64,000 nt of DNA, taken from contig CP136065.1 of the NCBI GenBank assembly GCA_032622095.1, positions 246,635,474-246,699,473 of the forward strand, in the 5' to 3' direction. The translations under genes and the position numbers were made by a program. Positions 2,744 through 57,558 of the stretch are shown in pieces. Source of the stretch: Siphonodentalium dalli. Lineage: Eukaryota > Mollusca > Scaphopoda > Gadilida > Siphonodentaliidae. Below the pieces are notes generated by a model that saw nothing but the letters and a program-made list of their open reading frames with translations, was not told the origin of the DNA and did no database searches. The stretch's first letter is position 1. Every line of letters begins with the position of its first letter.

Positions 2744-3064
2744 AGTGTATTTGAGGCTCAGGTATATGATTGGTTGTTTTTGTTTGAATGCAGTGAATTT
2801 GAAGCTCAGGTATATGATTGGTTGTTTTTGTTTGAATGCAGTGTATTTGAAGCTCAGGTATATGATTGGTTGTTTTTGTGATTGCAGTGAATTTGAAGCT
2901 CAGGTATATGATTGGTTGTTTTTGTTTGATTGCAGAGTATTTGAGGCTCAGCTATATGATTGTGGTTCTTGCTGTGTATTTGAGGCTCAGGTATATGATT
3001 GGTTGTGGTTCTTGCAGTGTATTTGAGGCTCAGGTATATGATTGGTTGTTTTCATTTCTTGCAG
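2744..3064 (+). repeat. Tandem array of the gene 1 splice-acceptor and exon edge
   Basis: Seven units of about 42-48 bp stand directly upstream of the true acceptor at 3064. Each contains a version of TGCAG|TGTATTTGAGGCTCAG|GTATATG, that is, an acceptor, the first 15-16 nt of the exon and a donor-like GTATATG. The real exon begins TGTATATGAGGCTCCTG. The unit near 2974 has lost its CAG and another reads CAGCTATATG instead of CAGGTATATG. Each intact unit is a potential 16-nt microexon, and including one would shift the frame. Confidence 0.85.
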
Positions 3065-3144
3065 TGTATATGAGGCTCCTGTTACTGTCAAATGGTGTGG
3101 TGTCGTTCCGGGTAAACCGACTGAGGCTCTAGCTATAGAAGCTG
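3065..3144 (+). CDS. Gene 1, 80-nt internal exon
   Basis: The exon is bounded by TTTCTTGCAG|TGTATATG and AAGCTG|GTATGT. Its first base completes the AG left by the exon at 1507-1662 to give Ser, followed by VYEAPVTVKWCGVVPGKPTE and ALAIEA. It ends with one base, G, which the last exon completes to GTG (Val). The phase agreement on both sides is the main evidence. The exon's own first bases are copied seven times upstream. No family recognised. Confidence 0.75.
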
Positions 3145-3305
3145 GTATGTAACTAAATCTACAATCTATGATATTCAAAACTCATCATAGAAAGAGCGTA
3201 GCATGAAACATGGAATCATCGATCACCTTCATAATTAAAAACTTCCACAAGTTAAAATTCATCCTAAAGTCGGTCTTTAAATGTTTTGTTTGTTTTATCT
3301 ACTCT

Positions 3306-3770
3306 TTAACCCTTTACCCAACAGAACGGCCCTGTGCCAATGCATTCTCTTATATATGCGAGCCGACCATAGGTCGCCTCGCATATATAAGAGAATGCAT
3401 TGGCTTAACACATATTAAAAATGATAAAATTGTCAAAGAATATAGAAAAATATTATAAAAATTGTTAAAAAATGTAAGAAAAAATTAAAAAATTGTTAAA
3501 GAATGTAAGAAAAAATGGTAAAAAGTGTTTAAAAAAAGAATTTTTTAGGCCAATGCATTCTCTTATATATGCGAGGCGACCTATGGTCGACTCGCATATA
3601 TAAGAGAATGCATTGGCACAGGGCATAACTGTAACCATCACAATGTGGTCAATGAACCGGTTCCAATGATATCCATATTTGTATGGTGTTATTGAGACAG
3701 ACCGAAGATATTTTAGGCTGTTGAAGCTTTATTTGGCCGGTTTTGGCCGTTTTGTTGGGTAAAGGGTTAA
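3306..3770. mobile_element. piggyBac-like TTAA MITE, 465 bp, two hairpins
   Basis: The ends are TTAACCCTTTACCCAACA and TGTTGGGTAAAGGGTTAA, matching the TTAA target and CCC-starting inverted ends known for piggyBac transposons. Inside are two near-perfect hairpins, each CAATGCATTCTCTTATATAT followed by GCGAG with its complement, around the loop CGACCATAGGTCG. An A/T-rich spacer of degenerate AAAATTGTTAAAGAATGTAAG units separates them. There is no transposase, so it is non-autonomous. It sits in the last intron of gene 1. Confidence 0.85.
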
Positions 3771-3933
3771 ACCAAAGACCTCTCTAAATAAAAATAAAAG
3801 GGTGTTCGGTTTGGAGAGGTTTTGCTGTATCTGTACATTCCCCAATTAACTTAATCGTCAGTGAGTATTTAGTCACCATCAAATTTTCTATGTCTGTTTC
3901 ATTTTCGCAATCAGTATTTCATTTATTTTCCAG

Positions 3934-4190
3934 TGGGACTCGTTGTTTCTGCCAATGTGAAAAAAATGGACAAGAATTATCGGGAGAACGTTTATTACTT
4001 CAAGGACAGAGGATCATTAGCGGGCGTGTTACCGATGGTCGGGCCGGGTCCCCGATCATTCTGTGTGAAGCACCTCAACGAAAACAAAGACGTTAACATT
4101 AAGAACAAAGATTTTGGATTAGCGGGACTGTATTTATTCATGAATGACGGACATGGATGCATTGTGGGAGTTTTACTCCATGCTGATTGA
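3934..4190 (+). CDS. Gene 1, terminal exon with stop
   Basis: Acceptor ATTTATTTTCCAG is followed by TGGGACTCG. With the G carried over from the previous exon it reads VGLVVSANVKKMDKNYREN and continues for about 85 residues to GCIVGVLLHAD and TGA at 4188-4190. Notable segments are a YYFKDRGSLAG stretch, a GPGPRSF turn and a glycine-rich hydrophobic end GLAGLYLFMNDGHG. Codon use and the uninterrupted frame support a real exon. The partial protein of three exons (about 164 residues) is not recognised. A polyadenylation signal is not certain; AATAAA clusters occur at 4984-4996. Confidence 0.75.
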
Positions 4191-4273
4191 CATCATTTTA
4201 CAGTTGATCAGGGTAGTTGGCCTCCATGGTAGAGCACACATTAACTGGTGTTTTACGGAACATCAGGCCAGTT

Positions 4274-4890
4274 TTGCCTTAATTAATACTCATTGATGAA
4301 CGATATTGGCTGGCACTTTACTGATGTTTGCAGCGGCTGACGTTCATTCATGACCGACATTAGCTGGAATTCTATTTTTGGTAAGATTCTCAATGGAAAC
4401 AGAACATAATTCCACCATTTATTAAAAATTTTGAAGAAGCAGAAACTTCCTTTGAAATAAGTAAAAACGAACCCATGTTACACAGGTTACAACCGGACAT
4501 GTATGCGTGAAACCGAAAGTACAAAATCATTGAACTTAAGCCAAGCCTTGAAATAGTGTGTCTGTCATTTGCAGAATGAGGTTCCCAGAGGGTGAATTTA
4601 GTGATGCTACCCCGCATAGCGGGCTAGCATCACCAAATTCACCCTCTAGGAACCTCATTCTACTGAGGTGTAAGCAGAATGAGGTCCCCAGAGGGTGAAT
4701 TTGGTGATGCTAGCCCGCAGTTTTGCCTTAATTAATACTCATTGATGAACGATATTGGCTGGCACTTTACTGATGGTTGCAGCGGCTGACCTTCATTCAT
4801 GACCGACATTAGCTGGAATTCTATTGTTGGTAAGATTCTCAATGGAAACAGAACAGAATTCCACCGTTTATTAAAAAAATTTAAGAGGCA
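4274..4890. repeat. Direct duplication flanking a truncated MITE
   Basis: About 165 bp at 4274-4440 (TTTTGCCTTAATTAATACTC onward) is repeated at 4722-4890 with few differences, an offset of 448 bp. Between the copies lies a truncated palindromic MITE. The second copy joins the MITE abruptly at GCTAGCCCGCAG|TTTTGCC. This looks like a tandem duplication with a breakpoint inside the MITE. Confidence 0.8.
4543..4721. mobile_element. Palindromic MITE, right end truncated
   Basis: It begins AAGCCTTGAAATAGTGTGTC like the full copies at 51068 and 57701. It has one complete palindromic half (GAATGAGG...CCTCATTC) and most of the second, then breaks off at 4721. It has no coding capacity. Confidence 0.8.
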
Positions 4891-8194: not shown

Positions 8195-9175
8195 CATTAC
8201 TTTTTATACGCCCGTTTGAAAAAACGGCCGTATTCAGTATAGTATTGGTCTGTCCGTCGTGCCGTCCGGGTGTCCGTCTGTTAACCTGGTTTCCGGATGA
8301 TAACTTTAGTTAGAGTGAACCAAATTTAATAAAATTTAGTATGTGGGTTTATTAGCCGAAAATTAAGTTCAAGTTCGAATTTGGGTTCCGCCCGCCAATT
8401 TTCACCGGAGTTATGCCCCTTATATGACGTTTTTTGACTTAGAAAATCCTTGAAATTTGTTGTCCGGATGATAACTTTAGTATAGTTTATCGGAATGAAT
8501 CCAAATTTGGTATATTACTTTCTCCCACCAAAACACAGGTCAAGTTCGAACTTGGGTTCTGTCCGACCATTTTTGGCAGAGTTATGCCCCTTTTTCGACT
8601 CAGAAAATTCAGTTTTTCTTATGTTTTTTGGTTTCCGGATGATAACTCGATTTTGGAATGTTTATATGCAAAACCCGTTTTTTTGTGGATTACATATATC
8701 GAAATACAGCTCAAGTCCGAATTTCGTTTTAATCCGAAAATTTTTGCGAGAGTTATGGCCCCTTTTTTGACGTAATTTGACTTAGAAAATCCCTGAAATT
8801 TGTTGTCCGGATGATAACTTTAGTTAGAGTGAACCGATTTCAATCAAATTTGGTATGTGGGTTTATTAGGAGAAAAGACAGCTCAAGTTCGAATTTGGGT
8901 TCCGTCCGCCAATTTTCACCGGAGTTATGCCCCTTATTTGACGTAATTTGACTTAGAAAATCCCTGAAATTTGTTGTCCGGATGATAACTTTACTAGAGC
9001 TTATCGGATTCAATGATAATTTGGTATATTACTTTCTCCCACCAAAACACAGGTCAAGTTCAAATTTGAGTTCCGTCCGCCAATTTTTACCAGAGTTATG
9101 CCCCTTTTTTACCAGTTTCCGCCGACCCAAGAGAGGGCGTATTTTGCACGCCCAGCGTAGCTCTTGTTTTGCTAT
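8195..9175 (+). repeat. Pearl-like element, five ~171-bp core units
   Basis: The head ATACGCCCGTTTGAAAAAAC followed by GGCCGTATTC is a small inverted repeat, followed by TCCGTC-rich simple sequence. Five tandem cores follow, marked by GTTATGCCCC near 8411, 8581, 8754, 8926 and 9097. The tail GAGGGCGTATTTTGCACGCC is followed by CAGCGTAGCTCTTG. Open frames across it are repeat artefacts. The same head/tail logic recurs at 20815-21995 and 56262-56517. Confidence 0.75.
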
Positions 9176-10600: not shown

Positions 10601-10604
10601 CACT

Positions 10605-11580
10605 GGTTTGTTTAGTTAGATCATTTGATTAATATTTTGGGGTATCTGGTAATCTCTTCCTTGTGGGAGTAGTTAATTTGATGTAAAGAGTTATATGCAA
10701 TCATGAGATTGGTGTCAATGCTTAAGTGTAAAACTGTCTCTCTTTCTGTATGACAAAGAAAGCAGGCTTCTGTTTCAGACATTTTGCAATTAAACAACTT
10801 AGAGTTAGTATAAAGGATATTATGAGATATTTTGAATTGAAATGAAAGTAGACTAGTATCATTTGTGATGTTACTTGTTTGCCTATAAATTAATTTCCAA
10901 TCATCTGGTGAAAAGTATCTGTTGAGCCTGTCCTCCCATTTCTTTTGTGAAAGGTGTGGAATCAAAGCGATTTTTCTACAAACAATGGGTAAAAGCTTTT
11001 GCAAGCTTTAATTCTCACAATTTTTCAATTATTCAAGATTGTGAGTGGCCACTGCATATCCCACTGTTCTGCCTAACATATGACTTCCAAGTTTGTGGAA
11101 GAGCAGTCAACAGACCTTGATAAATGGTGAATGGAGTGTTTATGTCTTACCTTAGGCAAAACCCATTGTATCCTAACAGTCCTGTATTTTCATGAACAAT
11201 TTAAGGTCATTAAGAAAGTAAATTCCCTTTCTGATCCATAGTATACAATAGAACATAACATATGTCGGTTTAAATACCAGGGTGTTTTTATATTAAAGCA
11301 GAGTAGTTCACTCAGTATATCTGATGAGGTTGGGATAGTACCCTGATCGAAGTGAGCCCATGCATTGAAAACATCTTTCCGGAAGTAATTCACTTTGTTG
11401 CCAATAAATTTGATACCATCTTGTGGAGATGCCATATTTGATGTCCTCCAATGGCTCTAAGTCGTCAACTAATAGGGTTTTCCATCTTGCCTCCCAATTA
11501 GGGTCAATTAATTTTTTCAAGTCATTTTTAAGGCTTTCGTAAAAGAATCTAGATGGGGGAATTTTAGTCCCATACCTCTA
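10605..11580 (-). pseudogene. Decayed LINE ORF2 C-terminal end
   Basis: Reading the minus strand, three frame-shifted blocks line up as the end of a non-LTR retrotransposon ORF2. The first, about 11520-11308, contains DPNWEARWKTLL. The second, 11435-11190, contains FIGNKVNYFRKDVFNAW and TPWYLNRHML. The third, 11004-10621, contains WEDRLNRYF, LLSFQFKISHNILYTNSKLF and the Cys/His segment CFLCHTERETVLHL. The order and the C-x2-C...H motif match the zinc-binding region after the reverse transcriptase. Frame changes mark it as dead. Clade not assigned. Confidence 0.75.
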
Positions 11581-20814: not shown

Positions 20815-21995
20815 AAAAGGTAGTATTTTGTAATCAGTCTGTTCATCCGTCCGTCTGTTAACATTTTTTGTTTCTGATTGATAACTCGATCCAGTTTGGA
20901 ATATTTGATTAGAACCAAAGTTGGTATGTGTATTTCCCAGCTAAAAATACAGGCCAAGTTCAAATATGGGCTTTGTCCAATTATTTTTACATGAGTTACG
21001 GCCCTTTTTCGACTTAGAATTTGGCCGTCCGTTAACATTTTTGGTTTCTGACTGATAACTCCAGTTTGGATTATTTGATCTGAACCAAAGTTGGTATGTG
21101 TATTTCCCAGCTAAAGATATAGATGAAGTTCCAATGTGGGATCCGTCGAATTATTTTCACATGAATTACAGCCCTTTTCTACTTAGAATTTGACCGATTT
21201 CATAACATTTCGGTTTCCAAGTTTCCAACAGATAACTCCTGTTGGATTATTTTATCTGAACCAACGCTGGTATGTGTATTTCCCAGCTAAAACTACAGAC
21301 CAAGTTTGAATATGGGTTCTGTCCAATTAGTTTTACATGAGTTATGGCCATTTTTCCACTTAGAATTTTATTTCATTTTGGCATTGAAATTAGGGGTATA
21401 TCGGGGGGATTTTTTCCGGGCAGGTATGCCGGGGTGGATGGGTGGTCGATGGGACTAAATTTTTTTTTTTCCTGCAAGTTTTTTCACTGTTTTTGCAATG
21501 AGTTTGGCTTAAAACACCTTAGAATAAGTGAAATAATGTAATTCTAACTGCTAAACTGACTGCAGGCAGTTATCGTGTTGTATTTTGTTGCAAATTTTTA
21601 AATCCAAGGGCAGCCATGTTTTTTTGGCCGAATTACCCCAAAATGACTCGTTCCTATTTACATGTCAATGTTAACATCCATGACAAATAGTATGCACAGA
21701 AATTCATATACAGCTGTTTACAGTGAATTCCCCCCCCCCCCCCCGCAAATATCTGTTTTAGTGTTAAAAAGGGGGGGGGGGGTGTCCAAAAATGGTCAGA
21801 AAAAATTTTGGACACAGGGGTGGGTGGGTCCCAAACAAGGGTCGAAAGGTAAAAATCAGCATACGTGCCTGAATAAAATTTCCGACCCCCCCCCTCGGGT
21901 ATATCAGATATTCTTTGTAAGCTCAAATAATTATTTTATTTTGCAGTTGTACAATTCAAAATAGCTAAAGGGCGTATTTTGCTGCGCGTTAGCGA
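20815..21995 (+). repeat. Diverged pearl-like element with C/G tract pair
   Basis: The head has TTTTTTGAAAAAAGGTAGTA and CCGTCCGTCTGTTAAC. Three cores of about 172 bp are marked by GAGTTACGGCCC near 20993, 21166 and 21341. The tail is GGGCGTATTTTGCTGCGCGT followed by GATGCTCTTGTT. Nested near 21590-21690 is a reverse-orientation fragment of the 1-1383 family (ATGACTCGTTCC, ACATCCATGACAAAT). It is followed by a C run at 21731-21744 and a G run at 21771-21782 that could pair. Confidence 0.65.
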
Positions 21996-22324: not shown

Positions 22325-23134
22325 CTAACCAACTATTCATTTAGTTCTTGATTCACATGTAGCCAGTTAGTGAAAGGAGCCAGAAGCCACAGAAGATTGT
22401 TTCATCCCCATGGGATTTCCGAAGGAAATCAGGAAGAGTTTTATAGTAGATGATTCAGTTGATTGTTAATGTTAGATTTCATAAATTGCATAAAGGCGTT
22501 AATAATTAGGTAATATTCATACTGTATCCCACTGGGCCAGTGCATTGTGTGGAATGTATGCTTTGAAAATGATTTACGATATACGAATTTGACACATATT
22601 AAAAGGTACAATACTGGACACATTTCATACTTTGGCTCCGCTCCTCCCATAATGTCATGACCAGGGATATGACACTATGCTAGGCCATCATTGAAACGGC
22701 ATCATTGTTACATGTATGCATGGTATATCAACCAATTCACGAAAAAAGATTTCACAATTACAATTTTTAATCCTATTAAGCAGCATTGATTCAATAATTC
22801 AATACATATTATACATCAATCGGGCCGAATTCTCAGGACCAACCTTGCACCTTGCATAGTGGGGGGTGGGTGTGTGGTGGGAACATCTATTGTATTCCTC
22901 TATAGTGAATAAACTACTTCCTGGTTTGAAACTACAACAGTACCGGAGGGTAATAACCCAGCCCTCGAAATTCAGAAAAATGTCCCACACCATATTTAAT
23001 GCTCTGGCATCTTCGATTCCACATGTTGCCACAGTGTTTCCCACAGCATTGCTTATTGCCATGGCCAATTTTGAGGACTGGTAACCTGACCACATCATGG
23101 CCATTATCATATGGTATGTGTTTTATATTTCCAG
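22325..23134. other. Region upstream of gene 2 first coding exon
   Basis: No promoter can be identified. The coding exon at 23135 is preceded by an acceptor, so an untranslated first exon should lie upstream but was not located. A minus-strand frame at 23110-22799 reads smoothly (NMVWDIFLNFEGWVITLRYC) but has no recognised family and no splice partners. Confidence 0.4.
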
Positions 23135-24132
23135 GCTGATATTCTTAACAATGGGAGAGTGCACTGACGGAATTGATGCCCTTATTAGGCATCGGAGCCA
23201 GAGACCAACTTTTGTTCGAATGATTTCATGGGAAATGAGCAAAGATGTCATACCAAGAAAGCGGCATAGTTCTAAAACATCAAAGAAGCGACATCCATCT
23301 GCTGTCGGGGAGGTGACAAATGAAGAGGAGGATGAAATTCCAGATGACGATTTATCTGATTCGTATTCTGATGATAGCGTTTATTTAACAGCTGATGAGA
23401 GCCCCAATGAACATAGTGATGATGATTCTACAAGTGTCGGAACCGAGAGTGTTTCTGAATCGATAACATCATCTGTTAGTGCAGCCTCCACTGGCTGTGA
23501 CTCAACACCTTCAAAGGGACGTCAAAGGCGTTTGAGTAAGAAACAAAGAAAGGGCAAACGCAAACAATTTGAATTATTCTATTGTGATAGCTTATTTGTT
23601 AATGAAGATTTTTTTAATATCACTGGACTCAATGAATTAACGCTCAATGTTGATGAGTTACTGAATGAATCGCAGAGAGTTTCTGTGCATAAAAGTGTGC
23701 CTAGTCTTCTGGAAATTTGTTTGCAAGTAGCATGGAAAAGTGGATTGAAATTTGAGGAAACTCCACCTGGCTTGATGCCCCTTATACATTCTCATCGACA
23801 CAGTGGTAAATTCTCGTCCATGCAGCTGAAGACATTGCAAAATTATTTCAAAGATAAAGATGAGGACAATTTACTAACTGAAACCTGGCAAATGAACATT
23901 AACGGCAATTCTGAGAAAGAGAAGAAAATTCTGTGGAGAGCAAAAAGAAATGTATGGAACGAGCATGATATAGACTGTCCCTGGAGGTCGGGGTCAGAAC
24001 AAAACCTTCCATATCATGGTTCACTGATGACTTCATTTCTCCGATGGACATCAGAGCAAGCCTTGTTTATAAATTTAAATGTTAATGATACATCTTGTCA
24101 GGATTGGCATGTAACCATGGCAGCACTGTCAG
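23135..24132 (+). CDS. Gene 2, first coding exon (start ATG 23151)
   Basis: Acceptor TTTATATTTCCAG precedes 16 nt of leader and ATG in ACAATGGGAG. The exon encodes 327 complete codons and ends CTGTCAG|GTCAGT with one base of the next codon. Residues about 36-48 are basic (RKRHSSKTSKKRH). Residues 55-121 are acidic and serine-rich, probably disordered, and 122-139 form a Lys/Arg cluster that could be a nuclear localisation signal. From about 140 the sequence looks folded (ELFYCDSLFVNEDFF, SLLEICLQVAWKSGLKFEE, SFLRWTSEQALFINLNV). An ATG 54 bp upstream is in frame but would require reading through the acceptor. I do not recognise the family; helical repeats follow in later exons. Confidence 0.8.
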
Positions 24133-24417
24133 GTCAGTATTGTCTCAATGCAACAGATAATTTATTCAATTTGGTTTGAATGTTCTGCATCAGGTATTTA
24201 AATAACATAGCTTATATACTGTCACAAATATTTACTCTTTTTCAATAGTGTTCCTGGGCCTCATTAAAAATATCCTTATTTCCCCTCACCCTTGTTTAAG
24301 AGTGAGTATAGCTGTATGTAGTTAAATAAATTTTCTTTACCTTTACCGATATAGGTTCAATAACTGTTACTTGAGATTTGTCCAGATATAAAAGTGTGTA
24401 TGATATACAGTAGATCT

Positions 24418-24830
24418 CAGAATTGGCATGTTACCATGGCAGCAATGTTAGGTCAGTATTGTCTCAGTGTTAAGTAGCGTTCAGATGACTGCTTTACGTT
24501 CGTTTGTTGCGTTGGATCTGTTGAACCGCTTATACACGTTGCAGGTGCAATTACACCCGTCTTCTGAATTGTGAGAGAAAATAAGTGCTCTCACTGTGTT
24601 TTCCTCGTGGGAAGGAAACCCAATGTGCCAACCCACAACAAATGCTCATCTGAACACTACTAACAAATTGCTTAAATTTGGTTAGAAGGTATCGGATCAG
24701 GTCAAGTTTTCAACTGACATAGTTTATATACAATGTACTCTCACAGATATTTATATCCTTTTGAAACAGTGTTTTTAGGTCACATTAACAGTTATCTTTG
24801 TTTCTCCTCACTTTACCTTATGTTCCAAGG
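24418..24830 (+). repeat. Duplicated end of gene 2 first exon plus donor and intron
   Basis: AATTGGCATGTTACCATGGC then AGCAATGTTAGGTCAGTATT repeats the last ~36 nt of the exon ending at 24132, with its donor and following intron. It is preceded by ATCTCAG, a possible acceptor. After an unrelated insert (about 24475-24660) the similarity to 24165-24300 resumes. The copy has a few substitutions, so it is not recent. Whether it is ever spliced is unknown. Confidence 0.75.
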
Positions 24831-26670: not shown

Positions 26671-26809
26671 CTGTCGGGCATGCCATCGATTTAATGTTGC
26701 CTTCAACCATGTCACACAGAACCAAGAAAATATGTGCCACAGATCAGAACTTACTGGAACAGAATCTGAAAGCTGCTGCATCTCGAGTGAAAACTGCTCT
26801 TAAGGCGAG
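26671..26809 (+). CDS. Gene 2, exon 2
   Basis: Acceptor TTCGACACAG|CTGTCG and donor GGCGAG|GTGCGT. Joined to the carried G it reads AVGHAIDLMLPSTMSHRTKK, then ICATDQNLLEQNLKAAASRV and KTALKA, a largely helical segment. It ends with AG, completed by the next exon to AGG (Arg). Degenerate copies of its donor region (AAGGCAAGGTGTGTAATCC, AAAGCAATGTGCAGAATCC) follow in the intron at about 26855-27180. Confidence 0.8.
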
Positions 26810-28780: not shown

Positions 28781-28836
28781 CATGCTGGGACATTCTGTGG
28801 TGAATTAGAGTCACCTCCCTTACTGTGCTTGAAGAT
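28781..28836 (+). repeat. Isolated copy of the exon 5 donor-edge unit
   Basis: CATGCTGGGACATTCTGTGG then TGAATTAGAGTCACCTCCCT matches the unit tandemly repeated at 33322-33852. It lies 30 bp before the exon 3 acceptor. Confidence 0.65.
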
Positions 28837-28867: not shown

Positions 28868-28986
28868 GTTTTCATTTCTAATTGACAAGTTATTTGATGA
28901 AGCATTAGCATACGTCTGTTGGGCGAGAGGCAATGTCAGCCAAGCCTCGGATATGTTGGTAAAGATCGCGGACAAAGAAGAACTTT
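28868..28986 (+). CDS. Gene 2, exon 3
   Basis: Acceptor CCATTTCAG|GTTTTC and donor GAACTTT|GTGAGT. The first G completes AGG, then FSFLIDKLFDEALAYVCWAR, GNVSQASDMLVKIADKEEL. The alternating helix pattern (FDEALAYVCWARGNVSQASDM) resembles a TPR or TPR-like hairpin. It ends with T, which exon 4 completes to TAT (Tyr). Phase fits on both sides. Confidence 0.8.
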
Positions 28987-31981: not shown

Positions 31982-32174
31982 ATCTAGAAAAAGCTTTACT
32001 GCTATCAGAGATTGGTCGAATGTACTCTCAGTTAGATGACTCTCAGTTGGCGACAAAGTTCATCCGTCTGGCATCAGAAGCTGCCCACGAAGCTGGTCGA
32101 GTTGATACAGATAAAGATTTCAATGACATTAATCATCAAATGTTACATCTGCTGGCGAATGTTCATGATCAAGG
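31982..32174 (+). CDS. Gene 2, exon 4
   Basis: Acceptor CACATTTACAG|ATCTAG and donor CAAGG|GTTAGT. T carried from exon 3 gives YLEKALLLSEIGRMYSQLDD, then SQLATKFIRLASEAAHEAGR and a third helix, DINHQMLHLLANVHDQ. The pattern (LEKALLLSEIGRMYSQLDDSQLATKFIRLA) is typical of TPR-like helical hairpins, with conserved-type small and aromatic positions. It ends GG, completed to GGG by exon 5. Confidence 0.85.
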
Positions 32175-33181: not shown

Positions 33182-33321
33182 GTTGATGACTGAAACCAAA
33201 TGCAGGGAATCTAAAGCTCTGTGGTCATCAGTAATTAACAGCGGCTACAAACAAATAAGTACCCCCTCATACCTCGCGGCCTTCGATGCTCTGCTGTGCT
33301 TCCATTCTGGGACATTCCCTG
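33182..33321 (+). CDS. Gene 2, exon 5
   Basis: Acceptor TTTTACTCTAG|GTTGAT and donor TCCCTG|GTAAGT. It reads LMTETKCRESKALWSSVINS, then GYKQISTPSYLAAFDALLCF and HSGTFP, and ends with G, completed by exon 6 to GGA. Phase agrees on both sides. The donor end of this exon is the source of the tandem array that follows. Confidence 0.85.
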
Positions 33322-33852
33322 GTAAGTTAGAGTTACCTTCCTTACTATGGGACATTCCCTGATGATTGAGAGTTACCTCCCTTATTGTGCTTCCTTGTTG
33401 GGACATTTCCAGGTGAGATAGAATTACCTCCCATTCTGTGATTCCATGCTGGGACATTCCCTGGTGAGTTACATCTCTTACCGTGCTTTCATGGTGGGAC
33501 AGTCTCGGGTGAGTTAGAGTTACCTCCCTTACTGCTCTTCCATGATGGGACATTCCCTGGTGAGTTACATCTCTTAGCGTGCTTTCATGGTGGGACAGTC
33601 TCAGGTGAGTTAGAGTTACCTCCCTTACTGCTCTTCCATGATGGGACATTCCCTGGTGAGTTAGAGTTACCTCCCTTAGTGTGCTTCCATGCTGTGAAAT
33701 TCCTTGATTAGTTAAGAGTTACATCCCTTACTCTGCTTCCATTCTAGAACATTCCCTGGTGATTTAGAGTTACCTCCCCATATTGTGTTTCCATTATGGG
33801 ACATTCCCTGGTAAGTTAGAGTTACCACCCTTACTGTGATTCCATTCCAATT
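33322..33852 (+). repeat. Tandem array of the exon 5 donor edge, about ten units
   Basis: Units of about 45-58 bp repeat CCATGCTGGGACATTCCCTG|GTGAGTTAGAGTTACCTCCC. That is the last ~20 nt of exon 5, its donor and the start of the intron. Copies are centred near 33350, 33400, 33452, 33497, 33547, 33595, 33642, 33690, 33748 and 33798. Most retain GTGAGT or GTAAGT directly after the exon-like part, so many are strong decoy donors. A 134-codon minus-strand frame across it is an artefact. Confidence 0.9.
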
Positions 33853-36086: not shown

Positions 36087-36237
36087 GAGGTGACATTGAC
36101 TGGCTGAAGGAAGCGGAAGATAAACTGAATAAAGCCGTTAAAAAGAGGATTCCCCTTAATATGCATTATTCATTCATTCTGGCATGGCTTGGGAAGACAG
36201 AAGAATCTAATTTAGCATTTATAAAGCTCTCTTATGG
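36087..36237 (+). CDS. Gene 2, exon 6
   Basis: Acceptor ACCTATTACAG|GAGGTG and donor TATGG|GTAAGG. G carried from exon 5 gives GGDIDWLKEAEDKLNKAVKK, then RIPLNMHYSFILAWLGKTEE and SNLAFIKLSY. This is strongly helical with a TPR-like spacing. It ends GG, completed to GGT by exon 7. A TTAA MITE is inserted only nine bases after the exon end. Confidence 0.85.
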
Positions 36238-36246: not shown

Positions 36247-36690
36247 TTAACCCTTTCAGTGACAGGTCCGATTTTTGTATCAACCCATATACCCTGTGAC
36301 AATGCATTCTCTTATATATGCGAGTCGACCATAGGTCGCCTCGCATATATAAGAGAATGCATTGGCCTAACAAATTTTCATCATTTGTTATTATTTTTTA
36401 CAATTTTTTTACAATTTTAATAATTTTTACTTATATTCTACTCTCTTTCAGTGCCAGACTTATTTTCTGGGTTTAGTGCCAGGGAATCTTACGTTTTTCA
36501 TGGGCATCAAAATTATTACTATGAATACTTGGTGATAGTTTTGAGTTATAACATATAATATTCAATGGCCAACCGCCTCCCAGTTATATTGAAATAACCC
36601 AACTGGATAAGGAATAGCACACCAATAGTTTGGTTTTGCAATCCAAAATGGCTCCACTTAGCTGTCTAGTCATCTGGCTGATGTGAGATT
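36247..36690. mobile_element. Chimeric TTAA MITE with preserved empty site
   Basis: It begins TTAACCCTTTCAGTGACAGG, like the 58233 subfamily, then switches at ATACCCTGTGACAATGCATT to the hairpin of the 3306 subfamily. From 36362 to about 36668 it matches 42762-42787 plus 45549-45840. At 36377-36395 the sequence TTTTCATCATTTGTTATTAT is uninterrupted, giving the empty site of the CACTA-like element at 42788-45544. Confidence 0.75.
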
Positions 36691-37446: not shown

Positions 37447-37586
37447 ACTTAGTTTTAAATTCATGCAAATAATAATACTGCATAAATTTAACTACAAGTA
37501 AGGCAATCAAGTCCTTATTTACAGTACTCAGTGGCAGCTGTCATATCGAAAGTCTGATGTGTGATAAATGTGTCTAATATTTACAG

Positions 37587-37724
37587 TGCTCAAGGGCAGG
37601 CATCCTACAAGATGTCCAGTGTGTGGGATCCATTAATAAATGAGGTGTTTAGGCGGAAGAGTGAAGTGCGGCCACTCAAGGTCATCTGGAGGACACAACT
37701 TCAGCCATATTGTCTGAGTGAAAC
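37587..37724 (+). CDS. Gene 2, exon 7
   Basis: Acceptor AATATTTACAG|TGCTCA and donor GAAAC|GTGAGT. The carried GG plus T gives Gly, then AQGQASYKMSSVWDPLINEV, FRRKSEVRPLKVIWRTQLQP, YCLSE. It ends AC, completed to ACG (Thr) by exon 8. Less regular than the preceding helical exons. Confidence 0.85.
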
Positions 37725-37964
37725 GTGAGTTTTTATTGGTTGAATGATGTCATATAACAAATAGTGATGTTTGTTCACTGTAATGGAGGTATATATAAAA
37801 AAAACTAAATTCCTCGTCGCAACTAATCCCTCAAAAATAACAATTATTAGCAGTGTTAGCAAATTCAGTGAGTTTTGTATCATAGGCAACAGTTCATATT
37901 TCCATAATTCTGCACACAGAATCAACATTTTTCTCACAGGTATCTCTTGTGTTTATATTTCCAG

Positions 37965-38093
37965 GCCAATATCTCTAGCTGATTTGTGTAGCACCCAAAT
38001 TAACCTGCGTTTCACTGTCGACGGATACCTCACTGGGGATATGCAGCAGTTACTTCCTCCGGTCAGGGGAGTGTACCTTGATCCACATACCGG
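37965..38093 (+). CDS. Gene 2, exon 8
   Basis: Acceptor TTATATTTCCAG|GCCAAT and donor ACCGG|GTAAGA. It reads TPISLADLCSTQINLRFTVD, then GYLTGDMQQLLPPVRGVYLD and PHT. It ends GG, completed to GGA by exon 9. Everything from its tenth base falls in a 649-bp duplication, so a near-complete second copy lies at 38628-38742. Confidence 0.85.
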
Positions 38094-39271
38094 GTAAGAA
38101 TTACTTCCCCTGTGAGGGGAGTGTACCTCGATCCACATACCGGTTAAGAATTACTTCCCCTGTCAGGGGAGTGTACCTCTATCCACATACCAGTTGAGAA
38201 TTGTTCCCATGAATCTTGCTGAAACAAAACTGAGCTACAGTGTAATGGACAATTTTCCATGTTACTTCAGCAGGAGAAAAATGGGTGGTATAATGGGTTG
38301 ATCGACTTATTCACAAGTGATGATGTTGAGATTGGTCTAAATTGTATTTGTGAGCTGCAGATGAATTTCTGTCAGTCACCTCACATATATTTCTGTCCAT
38401 TTCTGTCCATCTGTACAATATCATCGAATCAAATTTATTACATTTTCTGCATCCCACAAGTGTGTTTTCTACATATCTGTACCATGTGACACTATTTGAA
38501 CCAATCTTTAAATGTCGACATGATGGGTGCACTATATTTGGCAAGACCGCTTCAATAGTTTGTGTAACCACAGTTTTGACTCGATGCTTATTGATTAACC
38601 ACACTATGTCCAATCTGACAATTCTAGCTGATTTGTGTAGCACCCAAATTAACCTGCGTTTCACTGTCGACGGATACCTCACTGGGGATATGCAGCAGTT
38701 ACTTCCTCCGGTCAGGGGAGTGTACCTTGATCCACATACCGGGTAAGAATTACTTCCCCTGTGAGGGGAGTGTACCTCGATCCACATACCGGTTAAGAAT
38801 TACTTCCCCTGTCAGGGGAGTGTACCTCTATCCACATACCAGTTGAGAATTGTTCCCATGAATCTTGCTGAAACAAAACTGAGCTACAGTGTAATGGACA
38901 ATTTTCCATGTTACTTCAGCAGGAGAAAAATGGGTGGTATAATGGGTTGATCGACTTATTCACAAGTGATGATGTTGAGATTGGTCTAAATTGTATTTGT
39001 GAGCTGCAGATGAATTTCTGTCAGTCACCTCACATATATTTCTGTCCATTTCTGTCCATCTGTACAATATCATCGAATCAAATTTATTACATTTTCTGCA
39101 TCCCACAAGTGTGTTTTCTACATATCTGTACCATGTGACACTATTTGAACCAATCTTTAAATGTCGACATGATGGGTGCACTATATTTGGCAAGACCGCT
39201 TCAATAGTTTGTGTAACCACAGTTTTGACTCGATGCTTATTGATTAACCACACTATGTCCAATCTGACAAT
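37979..39271 (+). repeat. 649-bp near-perfect tandem duplication containing exon 8
   Basis: 37979-38627 and 38628-39271 appear identical wherever compared. The right breakpoint is AATCTGACAAT. The second copy lacks the true acceptor; the junction creates ACAATTCTAG|CTGATTTG. Splicing there after AC or GG would give an immediate TGA in the next codon, so the copied exon cannot replace or follow the original in frame. Inside each copy the exon 8 end plus donor is itself repeated (38060-38206). Confidence 0.9.
38094..38206 (+). repeat. Exon 8 donor-edge repeats, two extra copies
   Basis: CAGGGGAGTGTACCTTGATC then CACATACCGG|GTAAGAATTA is followed by two further ~50-bp versions: CTCGATCCACATACCGG|TTAAGA and CTATCCACATACCAG|TTGAGA. 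Both decoys have lost the GT at the border. The pattern recurs in the second 649-bp copy at 38743-38855. Confidence 0.8.
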
Positions 39272-40664: not shown

Positions 40665-40890
40665 GCCGTCTGTCTATTTGTACACCTCCGTCTGTCCATC
40701 CGGGCATATATCTCTTGGGTTATCTGAATGAAATTTTGTCTGGAAGTTCACCAGCATGACTGAGGTGAAAACGATGTTCACATTTTTCATTCTGGAGTTA
40801 TCCTTCTTTGTTTGGGTTCTGTCATGCCTATTTTTCAATTTGGCATCGTGCAGATATGCCAACACCAGAGGTGCAAACTTCTTGTTGAGA
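40665..40890 (+). repeat. Short pearl-like element
   Basis: The head is TGTCTATTTGTACACCTCCG followed by TCTGTCCATCC. There is one core (GGGTTATCTGAATGAAATTT, TTCTGGAGTTATCCTTCTTT), then the tail CCAACACCAGAGGTGCAAAC then TTCTTGTTGAGACAG, which runs directly into the exon 9 acceptor array. Confidence 0.65.
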
Positions 40891-41175
40891 CAGAGATGAG
40901 CGACAGTGTTATTGATGCTTGTTCCTTTGCTTTTTTAACCAGGCAGAGAATAGTTCACTCAAATCCCCATGAGAAAAAATGAACTACATTTCTATTGACA
41001 CTTTCATTTGTTTTGACCAGGCAGAGAATAGCTTGATCAACTCCTGGTGATAAAGAAATGAGCTGAATTGTCATTGACACTTTTTTCTTAGGCCAAAGAA
41101 TTATTCAATCAAATCATTTGAGACAGAGATGAGCGACCGTGTTATTGATGCTTGTGCTTTTTTTGTTTTCACCAG
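40885..41175 (+). repeat. Array of pearl-like terminus plus exon 9 acceptor edge
   Basis: Three imperfect units of about 65-85 bp precede the true acceptor. Each unit has a GAGCGACAGTGTTATTGATG or GAGCTGAATTGTCATTGACA terminus-like segment, then a T-rich tract and (in two) ACCAG. A copy of the exon start follows (GCAGAGAATAGTTCACTCAA near 40943, GCAGAGAATAGCTTGATCAA near 41021, AAAGAATTATTCAATCAAAT near 41096). The genuine exon starts ACAGAGAATAGTTCGATCAA. Confidence 0.85.
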
Positions 41176-41258
41176 ACAGAGAATAGTTCGATCAAATCCT
41201 GGTGACACAGAAACATGGTTGGACTCTTATGAATGGCTTCAAAAGGTCATCTCCACAG
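41176..41258 (+). CDS. Gene 2, exon 9
   Basis: Acceptor GTTTTCACCAG|ACAGAG and donor CCACAG|GTTAGA. It reads GQRIVRSNPGDTETWLDSYE, then WLQKVIST, and ends with G. That G fits exon 46837-47036 (GAC, Asp). Reading on without splicing gives Gly then TAG at 41262-41264, or, if 30 nt are skipped, the open frame to 41497. Confidence 0.8.
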
Positions 41259-46836: not shown

Positions 46837-47036
46837 ACACCATGTTCTTGCCCACACCACGGCAGTTATATGCTGATGATGACGGCACGACTGTTCATCT
46901 TCTTTGTGCCACTTCTAAACTACTCACTTGCATCACAAATGTCAATGTCAATATGGCTTCTTTACACTGGCAAGACAGAGAAGGTCATAAGGTCAAGTTG
47001 AATCTTATACCAATCATGAGGAAATTAGCTTACCAG
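46837..47036 (+). CDS. Gene 2, probable exon 10
   Basis: Acceptor TACAATTTCAG|ACACCA and donor TACCAG|GTTAGT. With the G of exon 9 it reads DTMFLPTPRQLYADDDGTTV, HLLCATSKLLTCITNVNVNM, then LHWQDREGHKVKLNLIPIM and RKLAYQ, ending in phase 0. Phase compatibility with exon 9 and with both 48844 and 54557 supports it, and so does coding-like composition. Family unknown. Confidence 0.75.
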
Positions 47037-47068
47037 GTTAGTCAAGAATAATTAACTATTTTAGTTTA

Positions 47069-47470
47069 GGGAACTCCATGGTCTAGTGGTTAGAGTGTCT
47101 GGCTTTTCTTCACTGTCTACAGGAGATGAGTTTGCACACTGTCTACAGGAGATGAGTTTGCCTCCCGCCAGTGGATTAACCCTTTCATGATGGGAGCTGC
47201 ACTGGTGCATACTGCGCAGGGCATACTCTTATATATTCAAGTATCCCATAGGGAGCCTCACATACATAAGAGAATGCACTGGCTTACAAGGTCAATTTAA
47301 ATATTGTTACTAGTTAGGCCAATGCATTCTCTTTATATGCGAGGCTTCCTATGGTAGACTCGCATTTATAAGAGAATGCATTGGCACAGGATTTTCACAA
47401 AATTTCAGGAAGCTCCAGTCATCAAAGGGTTAAGTAACATGTGGCTTTCGAGTCATACGCTCTTCAAAAT
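47069..47470 (+). mobile_element. tRNA-like SINE interrupted by a TTAA MITE
   Basis: The head is TCCATGGTCTAGTGGTTAGA (A-box-like), then a duplicated TACAGGAGATGAGTTTGC, CTCCCGCCAGTGGAT, and after the insertion GTAACATGTGGCTTTCGAGT. Removing the insertion restores an order matching the SINE at 5965. Confidence 0.65.
47176..47433. mobile_element. piggyBac-like MITE inside the SINE
   Basis: TTAACCCTTTCATGATGGGA to TCATCAAAGGGTTAA with two hairpins around CATTCTCTTTATATGCGAGG-like arms. A third subfamily (CATGATGGGAGC ends), related to 54157-54410 and 58460-58717. Confidence 0.8.
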
Positions 47471-49083: not shown

Positions 49084-49187
49084 GTCACATATCACGATTC
49101 ACCGTGCACCGGTTGTATTTCCCATCCCTACAATGGATGTTAATGGATGTTGTCACCGTTATTATAATCCTGATGCACAGGCATATG

Positions 49188-50790: not shown

Positions 50791-51067
50791 ATCTATTTCT
50801 TGATGGAATCTCTTGTTTATCTCAACAAACACACCATCAAACTGAGCTTTATTGTCATTGTTGCATCCATTGATTACAGTATATAACAGAAAATATAGCC
50901 AAGAACAAAATATCGCAAAAGAAAAGTGTCAAGTGGAAGGAGCTATTTGATTGGCTGGCTCAGCTTGCATACGAGAGAGGCAAGTCACAATCCTACTGGG
51001 TAAGTGCTCATAGCTTACTAGTCTATTCGCTGTTTCAGCTTGTGTATAAGAGAAGAAAGTCATGATA

Positions 51068-51319
51068 AAGCCTTGAAATAGTGTGTCTGTCATTTGCAGA
51101 ATGAGGTCCCCAGAGGGTGAATTTAGTGATGCTACCCCGCATGGTGGGCTAACATCACCAAATTCACCCTCTGTAAACCTCATTCTGCTGAGGTGTAAGC
51201 AGAATGAGGTCCCCAGAGGGTGAATTTGGTGATGCTAGCCCACTATGCGGGGTAGCATCACTAAATTCACCCTCTGGGGACCTCATTCTGCAAATGACAG
51301 ACACACTATTTCAAGGCTT
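51068..51319. mobile_element. Complete palindrome-of-palindromes MITE, 252 bp
   Basis: Terminal arms AAGCCTTGAAATAGTGTGTC and GACACACTATTTCAAGGCTT are perfect inverses. Inside are two palindromes (51099-51187 and 51200-51292), each GAATGAGG...CCTCATTC, separated by CTGAGGTGTAAG. Thus each half folds on itself and the whole also folds. Confidence 0.9.
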
Positions 51320-52282
51320 GTGGGTGAGTGGTTCTAGCTTTCTAGTCTGCTATTTGTATGGTGTAAGCAAAATATAATTTTTACCACTGTGAGATTCTGC
51401 ATAATGACCACATTACACAAATATTGTGCACTCTGCAAAGAATGAAAGAAACTTATCAAGATTTTCTTTTCCCCACCCCTTTGCAACGAATATATATTGA
51501 TGTAAATTTGTTCAGAAACTAGCAAAAAGCTCCTCTATAGTATAAATAATGGTATATACCATTGGAAAGTGGTCAGTCGTAAATGAATTTCGAAGTACAA
51601 TTGCTAGTCGCGCTCGTACGTCGAACGAAAGAACCCCTCATTTCCGTTTGCACATTCCGGGAAAGCCCTGGGAAATCCTGTCACCTGATTGGCTGGCGTC
51701 TTTAAAAAATGCCAGCTTTTGTATACAAATAAACACGTGGAACATCTAATTTTAGCGTATGGGCGTGGATAATCGATAACATAATTACTTCGCGCACGAG
51801 CAGTCCAAACAGGAATCTCTTCCGCTTTACATGAATGATGAATTCCGGGGATCTTAACAGTCTTTTGAACCGATCTCCGCTCACTGACGTGAAGTTTGTT
51901 CGTAGATTGTCTTTAATTGTACAATTTGGTTTCGTTTCTTGGGTCCAAAATGATTGACGTGCATAAAGTAGTCTATTTTGGGAGTCGCTTGCCAGGATAA
52001 TGACGTCACTCGCTCTGTTGTTTTTCGAGCTCGAGCAAATGACCTTGACTGCCATTTCGATAAGACGTACCGTGCGCGACTCTGGGAGCAAATGTACGCT
52101 AAGTTTACTGGAAAGTGGTCTACTGTTTTAGCGATGCATGTGGTATAACTGTAATGCAAGGAAATACATTAAGAGTTTTGGGAAACACATTCGATCTTAG
52201 GTTTTCTTTGATTGATCAGCATGATACATATTAATTTTGTCTATTGTTTTCGAGGATGCACTGCATCAAATTTTGACATATA
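51320..52282. other. No gene recognised
   Basis: Open frames of 92-129 codons on the minus strand at 51702-52159 have no recognised motif and no splice context. Nothing supported. Confidence 0.35.
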
Positions 52283-54022: not shown

Positions 54023-54156
54023 GAAGGGTTAATTTAATTTTAGATATATATTTTCTGTTCAGAAACATGTCACCTAGGTATGAGTTATCTCCCTTTGTAT
54101 CTCAACAGTTCAGAAAATATATCGAGTTTACTATAAACACACACACATCAGTGGCA

Positions 54157-54410: not shown

Positions 54411-54556
54411 AATATTTTGAATTGATAGCTTGGAGGAACTAAGATATCTGTAAAGGTGAAAAAATTGGTCACTTCAGTGTGAACCCTTGTTGGCAATTGG
54501 CCAATTCTGCCTCCAACAGTGCAAAACCCTGTTGAACATATTTTCCAAAATTTCAG

Positions 54557-54757
54557 AGGTTGGAACGTTACGTCAAAGCCTTCCTTCAGAAACTTGAAAG
54601 TAAAAAGGAGAAAGACAAAGTCCCAGATGAGAAGAAATTTTTCCGAGAAAAAATAAAGGATGACTATGATTTTGATGTGACGATTGAAGCCATACAACAA
54701 TATGGCAAAACGCTCTTCATACAACTGTGTGGACTTGACTATGGTCAAGTTAATTTC
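54557..54757 (+). CDS. Gene 2, probable further exon
   Basis: Acceptor CAAAATTTCAG|AGGTTG and donor AATTTC|GTAAGT; 67 codons, phase 0 at both ends. It reads RLERYVKAFLQKLESKKEKD, KVPDEKKFFREKIKDDYDFD, VTIEAIQQYGKTLFIQLCGL and DYGQVNF. Charged helix then mixed. It fits directly after the exon ending 47036 (LAYQ|RLERYV). The following exon was not found; an assembly gap begins 366 bp later. Family unknown; it could belong to a separate gene. Confidence 0.75.
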
Positions 54758-54864
54758 GTAAGTAGAGCACATTTACAATTTCGGAGGAAGTGCATTGTAC
54801 TGTCCCAATATAATGGCAGATCCATTGTATGTCAATATTCAAATCCATTTTTCATTTTTCACAC

Positions 54865-55110
54865 ATTCATTTGACTTGAAAATCTCTCCCAACTTGCATA
54901 ATTTTGTCCCAGCTTGTATTCCTACTTTTTTGTGTCAATTTTTTGAAAACTTGGCACAGATATTTAGTACCATGGGAAACTGTATACTTGTCCGACTTTT
55001 TTTGAGTGGAGTTATCCCCCTTATTCTACTTAGAAACAGTTTGCAACATGCATAATTTTGTCTGAGCTTGTATTCCTTGTTTTTTTTCTCGAAAAACAAG
55101 TTTGTTAATA
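54865..55110 (+). repeat. Pearl-like fragment of the TATACCCCCC family
   Basis: Cores with CATAATTTTGTCCCAGCTTG, ACTTGGCACAGATATTTAGT and ACCATGGGAAACTG, without head or tail. Confidence 0.65.
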
Positions 55111-55123
55111 TAGCCCATTTGGG

Positions 55124-55223
55124 NNNNNNNNNNNNNNNNNNNNNNNNNNNNNNNNNNNNNNNNNNNNNNNNNNNNNNNNNNNNNNNNNNNNNNNNNNNNN
55201 NNNNNNNNNNNNNNNNNNNNNNN
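55124..55223. other. Assembly gap, 100 N
   Basis: Exactly 100 N, a conventional placeholder; true length unknown. The left flank is pearl-like and the right flank is interior of a hAT-like element, so the sequence was probably lost to repeats. Confidence 1.
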
Positions 55224-55819
55224 AAATCATGAAATATTAATTATCCTTGCGAAAATATCTAAGTGACATCTGGAAACTAATAAGTTAATATTGTTACGCC
55301 ATTATCAAATTACAATCTGTCATAAAAAGCATGCATATTATTTTGAATGTATCGGTTTTGACAAATAGCCACAAAATATCTGTCGTGATTCACATTTGTC
55401 TGATTAAGCTATTGTCTTACACTTGGTGCTCATAAACCTTGACCGTCATAAATACAATGCATCATAAACATGCATTGTGCAGGAGCCCCCGTGAGTGACC
55501 AGACAGACAATGGGGGATTAGCGGATTAATTTAAAATAAAGACTTTTGCTGTTTCGTGCAGAGTTAGTGGTTTCCCTTTGTACTGTCCGCGATCGGGTTT
55601 CCCTTTGTACAGTCGGTGATATATTCCCACTTACGATGTTTTTGGACTAGATCGTTCACATCACAGAATTGAAAACCCACTTGCCAAAAATTCATGCTTT
55701 CATTCTCCATTTGGGGTAAAAAAAAAGTTTAGCCAAAAGTTTAGCCAAATGAAATTTTTATTAGCCAAATTCGAAAAAGATTAGCCATTGGCTAATTTGG
55801 CTACCGACAGCGCGAACAC
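55224..55819. mobile_element. Second copy of the 52580 hAT-like element, left end in gap
   Basis: Matches 52940-53915 with internal deletions and ends CTACCGACAGCGCGAACACTG at 55819. Closely similar but not identical (GCGCGAA for GCGTGAA). Confidence 0.85.
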
Positions 55820-56261
55820 TGGTTACGTGTGTGACACAAAAATTGTTATGTGTGTGACCTTCTGAAAAAATCATAAATGGTAACTAGAAAAGCTAGCATT
55901 TATTAATAATCAGGGAGATGCTAATTGTTGCGAGTGAATAAAATCTTGTTCCTTTATATATTGACACATTTTAAACATATGAACCCTGTTATCTCCAGAA
56001 ACTGTTATGTGTGTGACAGATATACGAACGGTATATTATACAATGAGTCAATCTGCATAAAATGTATTCTGAAAAGCACTAGAGTTTACACTTTTATCCA
56101 GATATCAGTTGGTAGGCAAACTGTATAGTACTTCAAGTATTCTTTTACTTGTATCATACTTCATTTATGTTACATCTATATATATATTAAAAACTCCAAT
56201 TCCAACATGCATACAAGTACATGTTTGTGTAAAAATATGATATAATAAATATGGGATCAAT

Positions 56262-56517
56262 TTTGAATGCCCGTTTTTAAAAATGGGACATATTATGTGA
56301 TTTGTCTGCCTGTCTGTCCGTCCATCCCGTTTGCATCTGGCTTCCGTATGATAACTTTAGATAGTCTCACTGAATAACAATTTTGATATGTATGGCAAAA
56401 TACAGGTCAAGTTCAAATTTGTGTCCCCCCCCCACCAATATTCAGACAGTTATTGCCCTTTGTTGGAATTACAATGGGTATTTTCTGCCAAGCCCTATAG
56501 TGATGCTCTTGTAAAAA
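56262..56517 (+). repeat. Pearl-like element, one core
   Basis: Head GAATGCCCGTTTTTAAAAAT then GGGACATATTATG, CTGTCCGTCCATCC, one core (CAGGTCAAGTTCAAATTTGT), tail AGTGATGCTCTTGT. The same head and tail type as 8195-9175. Confidence 0.65.
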
Positions 56518-56778
56518 ATAATTCAATAAACGTTTAGTCTGTTGTGTTGCTTGGAATACAAGCAACCCCCCCCCCCCCCGCCCATATATTAAGGGTGTCA
56601 CATAACTATTGCGCGCTTATCCTGATTATGTTTACATTTGGTCCACAATTTACATGTGAACTACATGACCATATAACAACGGCACTTACAATGGTCACTT
56701 TATACATTGACCAAACCTTAACACAATAATTGTATTAACTAAACTTATTTAAAGAGATACGTACAAATCACTCTTTTA

Positions 56779-57558
56779 GGAGAGACGTGTACCTTGTATG
56801 ATTTAGGAGAGCCGGAGCATTTCTATAACGCATTTGAGGGCAGTGATTGATATTTCAGCTTGTACCGTATATGTTATTAGGAGAGATGTGTACCTTGTAT
56901 GATTTAGGAGAGACGGAGCATTTCTATAACTCATTTGAAGGCAGTGATCGATATTTCAGATTGTACCTTATATGATTTTAGGAGAGATGTGTACCTTGTA
57001 TGATTTAGGAGAGACGGAGCATTTCTATAACACATTGAAGGCAGTGATCGATATTTCAGCTTGTACCTTATATGATTTTAGGAGAGATGTGTACCGTGTA
57101 TGATTTAGGAGAGACGGAGTATTTCTATAAACACATTTGAAGGCAGCGATCGATATTTCAGATTGTATTGTGTATGATTTTAGGAGATACGTTACCATGT
57201 ATGATTTTAGGAGAGACGGTGCATTTCTATAACACATTTGAGGGCAGTGATTGATATTTCAGCTTGTACATTGTATGATTTTAGGAAAGACGGATGGGAG
57301 CATTTCTATACCTCGTTTGTACCGTGTATGTTTTTAGGAGAGATGGAGCATTTCAGTAATGCGTTTGAGGGCAGTGATAGATATTTCAGCTTGTACATTG
57401 TATGATGTTAGGAGAAATGGGCCATTTCTATAACGCATTTGAGGCAGTGATAGATATTTCAGCTTGTACATTGTATGATGTTAGGAGAAATGGGCCATTT
57501 CTATAACGCATTTGAGGCAGTGATAGATATTTCAGCTTGTACCCGTGTATCATTTTAG
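56779..57558 (+). repeat. Tandem array of the SLC7 exon acceptor edge, about eight units
   Basis: Units of about 65-130 bp contain TTTAGGAGAGACGGAGCATT then TCTATAACGCATTTGAGGGC and AGTGAT, followed by TGATATTTCAGCTTGTACC. The first part is an acceptor plus the first ~45 nt of the exon at 57559. Core copies lie near 56832, 56933, 57035, 57137, 57233, 57362, 57440 and 57505. Translated in the exon frame the decoys read ETEHFYNAFEGSD then stop. Confidence 0.9.

Follow-up and report, generated by a model that had tools for sequence, protein, structure and literature searches.

Mirage-like minisatellites at exon borders of a 64-kb genomic window probably reflect ordinary repeat growth tolerated at exon edges

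Introduction

Why should several exon borders that share no sequence each adjoin a tandem array built from their own splice site? The question is raised by a 64,000-nucleotide (nt) stretch of one genome assembly (the window, to which all counts given here are limited), in which a preliminary description had pointed out five such borders and proposed a recurrent process, with selection for decoy splice sites among the possibilities, as the cause. We compared every modelled exon border with the surrounding DNA, asked how often borders are duplicated relative to the rest of the window, and set the arrays beside known systems. Judged from their sequence, these exon-edge arrays are of the kind already named ‘mirages’ in lancelets, and the explanation that we consider probable is ordinary repeat growth, tolerated at exon edges.

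Tandem copies of splice junctions

Junction-spanning copies were sought with the Basic Local Alignment Search Tool (BLAST), by comparing the 80 nt around each of 29 borders with the window and requiring at least 6 nt on either side of the junction. The border set comprises the 12 exons of one gene (gene B, which belongs to a conserved family of uncharacterised animal proteins; its homologues are those of Argopecten, Ptychodera, Dysidea and Mactra and the protein P0004), the two exons of a second (gene A), and a single exon resembling SLC7A9 (Table 1). Strong local copies were found at 6 of the 29 borders, three acceptors (3065, 41176, 57559) and three donors (24132, 33321, 38093); copies are weak at two further borders (the E1b donor at 26809 and the E4c acceptor at 37587) and doubtful at one (the E8 donor at 50999). 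The five borders singled out in the preliminary description, which include all of the strong ones but 24132, were each confirmed by BLAST and Tandem Repeats Finder (TRF) to adjoin a tandem array whose unit crosses the junction.

Copy number varies widely among these borders. The acceptor of the SLC7A9-like exon (57559) has 13 junction-spanning copies, and the E4 donor (33321) has 10 downstream copies plus one ectopic copy; this ectopic unit sits 4.5 kb upstream of the E4 array. At acceptor 3065 there are six junction-spanning copies and one 20-nt piece, at the E6 acceptor (41176) two, and at the E5 donor (38093) two downstream, with three further in an exact second copy near 38699-38860. The E1 donor (24132) is followed by one copy only (53 nt, 91% identity, 319 nt downstream), just as had been described. 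The degenerate series reported after the next exon, E1b, fared less well, a single 17-nt copy across the donor being recovered (P 0.012) and the other look-alikes being recognisable by eye only. Array copies are mostly 9-25% diverged from their exon border, and TRF resolves nested higher-order units (27 in 101 nt; 51, 96 and 147 nt) that resemble ordinary minisatellite turnover.

The E8 donor passed the automatic test, and is nonetheless graded doubtful because its 28-nt copy (51321-51348) includes only 3 exon bases beside 25 intron bases, the remainder of the alignment being the end of an inverted-repeat element. One palindromic element beginning GCAGAATGAGGT lies between E8 and this copy. 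A tandem repeat at 47111-47161, considered as an acceptor array, was rejected, since it lies about 75 nt past the E7 donor; the stretch around it looks tRNA-like by eye, and ARAGORN reports no transfer RNA gene there.

When all 29 border segments (80 nt each) were compared with one another, the sole match involved the E1 and E5 acceptors (23117-23142 and 37948-37972), which share 26 nt at 88% identity (E 0.003), perhaps through nothing beyond their polypyrimidine pattern. The earlier claims that units are unlike between exons, and that each array was copied from its own border, therefore hold; a single repeat family inserting at exons was rejected, the border segments being mutually unlike.

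Direction of copying

Three of the arrays carry codons of protein motifs that are conserved well beyond this locus. The unit of the E4 array holds the codons of LC[FY]H, present in 5 of 5 homologues of gene B. That of the E5 array holds those of LPPVRGVYLDPHTG, whose core PPxRxxxLDP likewise recurs in all five, and tblastn searches with the homologues match the E5 array copies themselves. The unit at the SLC7A9-like exon holds codons of NAFEG, which align to NSFEG of a solved b(0,+)AT. Because these exon ends code for conserved motifs, they must be older than their arrays, and in these three cases copying is shown by sequence comparison to have run from exon to intron. At 3065, 24132 and 41176 the exon parts are too poorly conserved to give a direction.

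The same evidence bears on the converse order of events, in which intronic arrays came first and supplied splice signals, parts of them becoming exon ends by exonisation or intron gain. A related model has been put forward for amphioxus globins (legend to Figure 7 of PMC3087553, a paper drawn on here in part), and the low conservation of three exon parts would suit it. The exon ends of E4, E5 and SLC7, however, code for conserved motifs shared with bivalves, a hemichordate, a sponge or vertebrates, and exonisation of earlier arrays is rejected for these three of the six strong arrays. As a general account, the repeats-first order is the least probable of those weighed here.

Borders compared with other DNA

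Arrays as such are far beyond chance in this window, and local duplications (offset up to 1000 nt) cover about 17% of it. Borders fall within BLAST-defined local duplications about as often as expected: 3 of 29 against 1.9 expected at offsets up to 150 nt (P 0.31), 5 against 4.1 at offsets up to 400 nt (P 0.42), and 6 against 4.9 at offsets up to 1000 nt (P 0.37). TRF arrays touch five borders, for which the array at 41176 was entered with its BLAST extent, TRF having cut it short; against this, 3.5 are expected when all 38 arrays are considered (P 0.29; P 0.11 when counted per array), 3.2 for arrays of at least 140 nt (P 0.25), 2.1 for units up to 110 nt (P 0.082) and 1.7 for units of 20-110 nt (P 0.045).

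The picture is similar when coverage is broken down by compartment. At offsets up to 400 nt, local duplications cover 16.4% of noncoding DNA. The figure is 15.2% for intron sequence up to 100 nt from a border, 14.5% for the outermost 30 nt of exons and 0.7% for exon interiors, and the pattern is unchanged at offsets up to 150 and up to 1000 nt. The interior deficit is significant by circular shift (P 0.011), whereas exon edges show no excess over the 16.0% coverage of the shift null (P 0.58). In their exposure, then, exon ends resemble introns, and only interiors are protected; since edges are covered like noncoding DNA, a border-specific process is unnecessary, and the recurrent border-directed process of the preliminary description is not borne out. 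Its observation that repeats always lie on the intron side does hold as a pattern; it is not independent evidence, because any unused copy counts as intron by definition, and those arising within exons are purged.

An alternative is that tandem duplication starts preferentially at borders, for example because replication stalls at splice junctions or because co-transcriptional RNA-DNA structures form there. Several results favour it and weigh against tolerated ordinary growth; the retention of splice dinucleotides, considered in the next section, also counts against ordinary growth. For arrays with units of 40-110 nt, a size class picked post hoc, after the data had been seen, five borders are touched where 1.1 would be expected (P 0.011); of the nine arrays in the class, five touch a border, against 0.85 expected (P 0.0006). 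A more sensitive test, in which 70 nt of each border were compared with its own 400 nt of intron and the null was drawn from distant noncoding chunks, gave hits at 9 of 29 borders, compared with 55 among 508 control points (Fisher P 0.004). Besides the six strong borders, these were the donors of E1b (17 nt) and E8 and the acceptor of E4c (22 nt); the E9 donor, whose flank is partly N gap, did not pass (P 0.10). By circular shift, nine borders exceed the 3.65 expected for repeats on a border's own side (P 0.005); allowing either side raises the expectation to 5.21 (P 0.066).

These signals weaken under closer control. Without the doubtful donor at 50999, the eight remaining borders give P 0.019 on the own side and P 0.14 on either side, and the six strong borders taken by themselves give P 0.15 and P 0.44, respectively. 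We consider the either-side control the fairer one, because a border can show repeats on its intron side only. Over all tests, P values for enrichment at borders range from 0.0005 (the post hoc size class) to 0.58, and coverage is without excess at all three offsets. A modest excess of arrays at borders is possible, not established, and from this single window we regard a border bias as an unlikely, though not a negligible, explanation.

Decoy splice sites

Another possibility is that the extra splice sites have been selected, as alternative or poison sites that tune expression. Over 34 copies, 64 of the 68 AG/GT letters are kept, against 1354 of 1563 (86.6%) of other letters, a difference (Fisher P 0.044) to be read with the non-independence of the copies and with the absence from the count of one copy near 2970 whose AG is gone. 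Several E4 decoy donors, moreover, read GTGAGT. Coding consequences speak against selection: an open frame is retained at none of the 34 decoy positions, which runs counter to the decoy-site selection that had been suggested. All 15 decoy positions of gene B, including all 10 at E4, run into a stop; among those at 3065 (five) and SLC7 (14), the nine that would extend the exon by a multiple of three have in-frame stops, and the remaining 10 would cause a frameshift. The aligned dinucleotide is lost in 4 of the 34, two at E4 and two at E5, the latter being both extra copies of the 38093 donor, where the aligned GT has become TT and a GT persists one base upstream. In amphioxus, reverse-transcription polymerase chain reaction (RT-PCR) suggests that regular splicing is undisturbed by comparable arrays, according to the portion of PMC3087553 consulted. 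Selected decoys thus appear very unlikely, use as poison sites being their conceivable form, and the copies fit neutral by-products.

Gene models and the reality of the borders

The borders tested are real, as 870 open codons with matching phases, homologue matches, and SLC7A9 homology at 57559 show. The gene B model runs through 12 exons from E1 (23135-24132) to E9 (54557-54757), without a stop and with all phases compatible. Nine of its 12 exons (E1, E1b, E2, E3, E4, E4b, E4c, E5 and E7) are supported by tblastn with homologues, the weakest match being that of E4 (E 0.03); E6, E8 and E9 are supported by open frame and phase, and E6 additionally by alignment with homologues. Searched alone, E1 returned no homologue, and tblastn with homologues did not locate the last ~400 residues of the protein within the window.

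Gene A (3065-4190) appears to represent the C-terminal exons of a gene B paralogue; the two genes would be paralogues in tandem, unless the scaffold is mis-ordered. By tblastn, 4 of 5 homologues align their C-termini to the gene A exon at 3934-4190 (E 6e-10 to P0003); the exon at 3065-3144 joins that exon in phase and has no significant match alone. The exon at 57559-57658 matches 6yup_D in PDB (E 7.7e-10) and is SLC7A9- or b(0,+)AT-like; tblastn of a human protein against the window revealed no second SLC7 exon that was convincing. This lone exon sits past a 100-N gap (55124-55223), and scaffold order there may be wrong. Pfam searches of the exon pieces tested gave nothing below E 0.08, an Rfam scan gave no match, and PDB searches with four other pieces gave no hit for one, a chance hit for another, and mostly designed helical or ankyrin-repeat proteins for the remaining two.

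The gap and the lone SLC7 exon without neighbours would suit an origin of the arrays in mis-joined or falsely expanded repeats, as would a perfect 649-nt tandem duplication (37974-39271) that is probably a haplotype or assembly duplication, or else very recent. The divergence of most copies from their exon border, noted above, means that they are not read-level duplicates of one sequence, and assembly artefacts are a highly improbable source of the arrays as a whole.

Other repeats and phylogenetic placement

The window (G+C 33-41% per 2-kb step) contains other repeats as well. TRF finds satellite-like arrays with units of 150-171 nt at 52-1230, 8292-9110, 20851-21368 and 62014-62748. Palindromic elements beginning GCAGAATGAGGT, some in tandem pairs, lie at 51096-51291, 57728-57924 and 2233-2325, and inverted-repeat elements with CCAATGCATTCTCTTATATATGCGAG or close variants were noted by eye at 3330-3620, 36290-36370 and 47270-47390. 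An open stretch on the reverse strand (10624-11007) gives a sub-threshold zf-RVT match (24.7 bits against a cut-off of 27.5) and is probably the remnant of a long interspersed nuclear element.

In a six-row gene tree, the window groups with Argopecten, Mactra and P0004, apart from Ptychodera and Dysidea (support 98/96). Rooted on the sponge, the tree suggests that the organism is a spiralian and not a deuterostome such as a lancelet. The tree draws on one gene with long branches and no amphioxus row, and carries a tool warning on Dysidea and Argopecten; the placement is accordingly offered as a lead. If it is true, mirages exist beyond lancelets, and if the organism is not a lancelet they would be a general outcome of high local-duplication rates rather than a cephalochordate oddity.

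Table 1. Exons, exon-edge arrays and related copies in the window.
Feature	Position	Strand	Basis and remarks
Array of acceptor 3065 plus first 14 nt of exon, unit ~48 nt	2730..3078	+	TRF, BLAST
Penultimate exon, gene A	3065..3144	+	Phase fit with exon at 3934
Last exon, gene A	3934..4190	+	tblastn E 6e-10 to P0003; 4 of 5 homologues match; no array at acceptor
Exon E1, start codon 23151	23135..24132	+	P0004 and P0005 align from their residue 1 at 23151
Diverged single copy of E1 end plus donor	24417..24469	+	BLAST, 91%
Exon E1b	26671..26809	+	tblastn, phase; weak donor copy (17 nt) ~90 nt downstream
Ectopic E4 donor unit directly upstream of E2	28781..28827	+	BLAST, 83% over 47 nt, E 4e-9
Exon E2	28868..28986	+	tblastn, phase; no junction-spanning copy at either border
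Exon E3	31982..32174	+	tblastn, phase; junction-spanning copy not found
Exon E4	33182..33321	+	E 0.03, phase; end codes conserved motif LC[FY]H
Array of last 27 nt of E4 plus donor plus 24 nt intron; units 40-51, 96, 147 nt	33294..33845	+	TRF, BLAST
Exon E4b	36087..36237	+	E 0.003, phase; junction-spanning copy not found
Exon E4c	37587..37724	+	Phase, tblastn; weak 22-nt acceptor copy ~60 nt upstream (37516-37537)
Exon E5	37965..38093	+	tblastn, phase; end codes conserved motif PPxRxxxLDP
Three-copy array of E5 donor, unit 50 nt (43 nt exon plus 7 nt intron)	38050..38202	+	TRF, BLAST
Exact second copy of 37974-38622	38623..39271	+	649/649 identical; E5 minus first 9 nt and acceptor, plus array
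Array of E6 acceptor plus first 24 nt of exon; offsets 84 and 233 nt	40885..41199	+	TRF, BLAST
Exon E6	41176..41258	+	Open frame, phase, alignment with homologues
Exon E7	46837..47036	+	tblastn, phase; junction-spanning copy not found
Exon E8	50880..50999	+	Open frame, phase; doubtful donor copy 51321-51348
Exon E9	54557..54757	+	Open frame and phase only; no junction-spanning copy; 3' flank enters N gap
Array of SLC7A9-like acceptor plus ~41-46 nt exon, units 73-101 nt, nested 27-nt repeat	56774..57599	+	TRF (two blocks), BLAST
SLC7A9 / b(0,+)AT-like exon	57559..57658	+	PDB 6yup_D, E 7.7e-10

Discussion

Ordinary repeat growth, the explanation that we hold to be probable, would proceed as follows. 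Short local tandem duplications would arise throughout the noncoding DNA of a repeat-rich animal genome, presumably by slippage or unequal exchange, and one that crossed an exon border by chance would copy both the end of the exon and the splice signal beside it. Were splicing to keep to the copy that adjoins the exon body, through an exon-proximal choice, the surplus copies would turn intronic and could multiply and drift as any minisatellite does, probably without function, and duplications inside the exon would be purged by selection.

A wider proposition is that, in a spiralian-like lineage, minisatellites arise preferentially at borders, mirages sit at an appreciable share of exon ends, and the same process acted independently in lancelets, so that a general mutational bias at splice junctions would exist; we would put the chances of this low. 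Mirages show minisatellite birth from exon ends with known direction, and they are a hazard for gene annotation, as decoy sites and copied exon ends resemble real ones.

Comparison with known systems

The human genome offers partial parallels. IFI6 reportedly contains a minisatellite carrying repeated splice donors, a single case with a 12-nt unit whose donors are used. The available part of one survey describes 27 intron modifications by tandem repeats in human genes; in duplicated genes, variable internal tandem repeats at exon-intron boundaries alter gene structure, as they do here, and in some paralogues they can be spliced out as novel introns, whereas here the exon body is unchanged (PMC2812944). 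Intron gain by tandem duplication, taken up in the discussion section of PMC3087553 as far as that source was covered, likewise involves local duplication that includes splice signals. As an account of the present arrays it was rejected, since the two borders of the same intron never match among the 29 segments compared; the two arrays within the intron between E5 and E6 are unrelated in sequence.

The closest counterpart is found in amphioxus, and with it the statement that the phenomenon has no name falls away. Minisatellite-like tandem copies of intron/exon boundaries occur in several amphioxus genes, where they were called mirages after the Adh3 work cited there (PMC3087553); in the parts of these papers drawn on, the loci are Adh3, TnC, the globins BflGb6 and BflGb9, and PGBD5, the last added by a report that also names Adh and TnC (PMC3902484), and other loci are cited as well. 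No report of a named mirage outside cephalochordates emerged from the literature searched, in which subscription journals were mostly not covered. Unlike the amphioxus cases, the present one may come, to judge by its gene tree, from an animal nearer to bivalves than to hemichordates. Its six strong examples fall within one 64-kb window, at three loci of which two are paralogues, and are known from the sequence of one assembly only; the 12-exon open frame shows only that normal splicing is possible, whereas for amphioxus there is RT-PCR.

Unit lengths of amphioxus mirages are given, in the sections seen, as 10-72 and 150-160 bp; those found here (~40-101 nt, with higher-order multiples) lie partly between these ranges, which are descriptive rather than defining. 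Amphioxus mirages affect 5' and 3' boundaries alike, keep AG/GT in many but not all copies, and show length instability, as described in the accessible part of PMC3087553. Length polymorphism, somatic instability and concerted evolution within the cluster, from which edge copies are exempt, are further traits of amphioxus mirages. In the present window, too, the repeat unit crosses the exon-intron boundary (with one copy only at 24132), acceptors and donors are affected in equal number among the strong cases, and many copies, though not all, keep the AG or GT of the splice site from which they derive.

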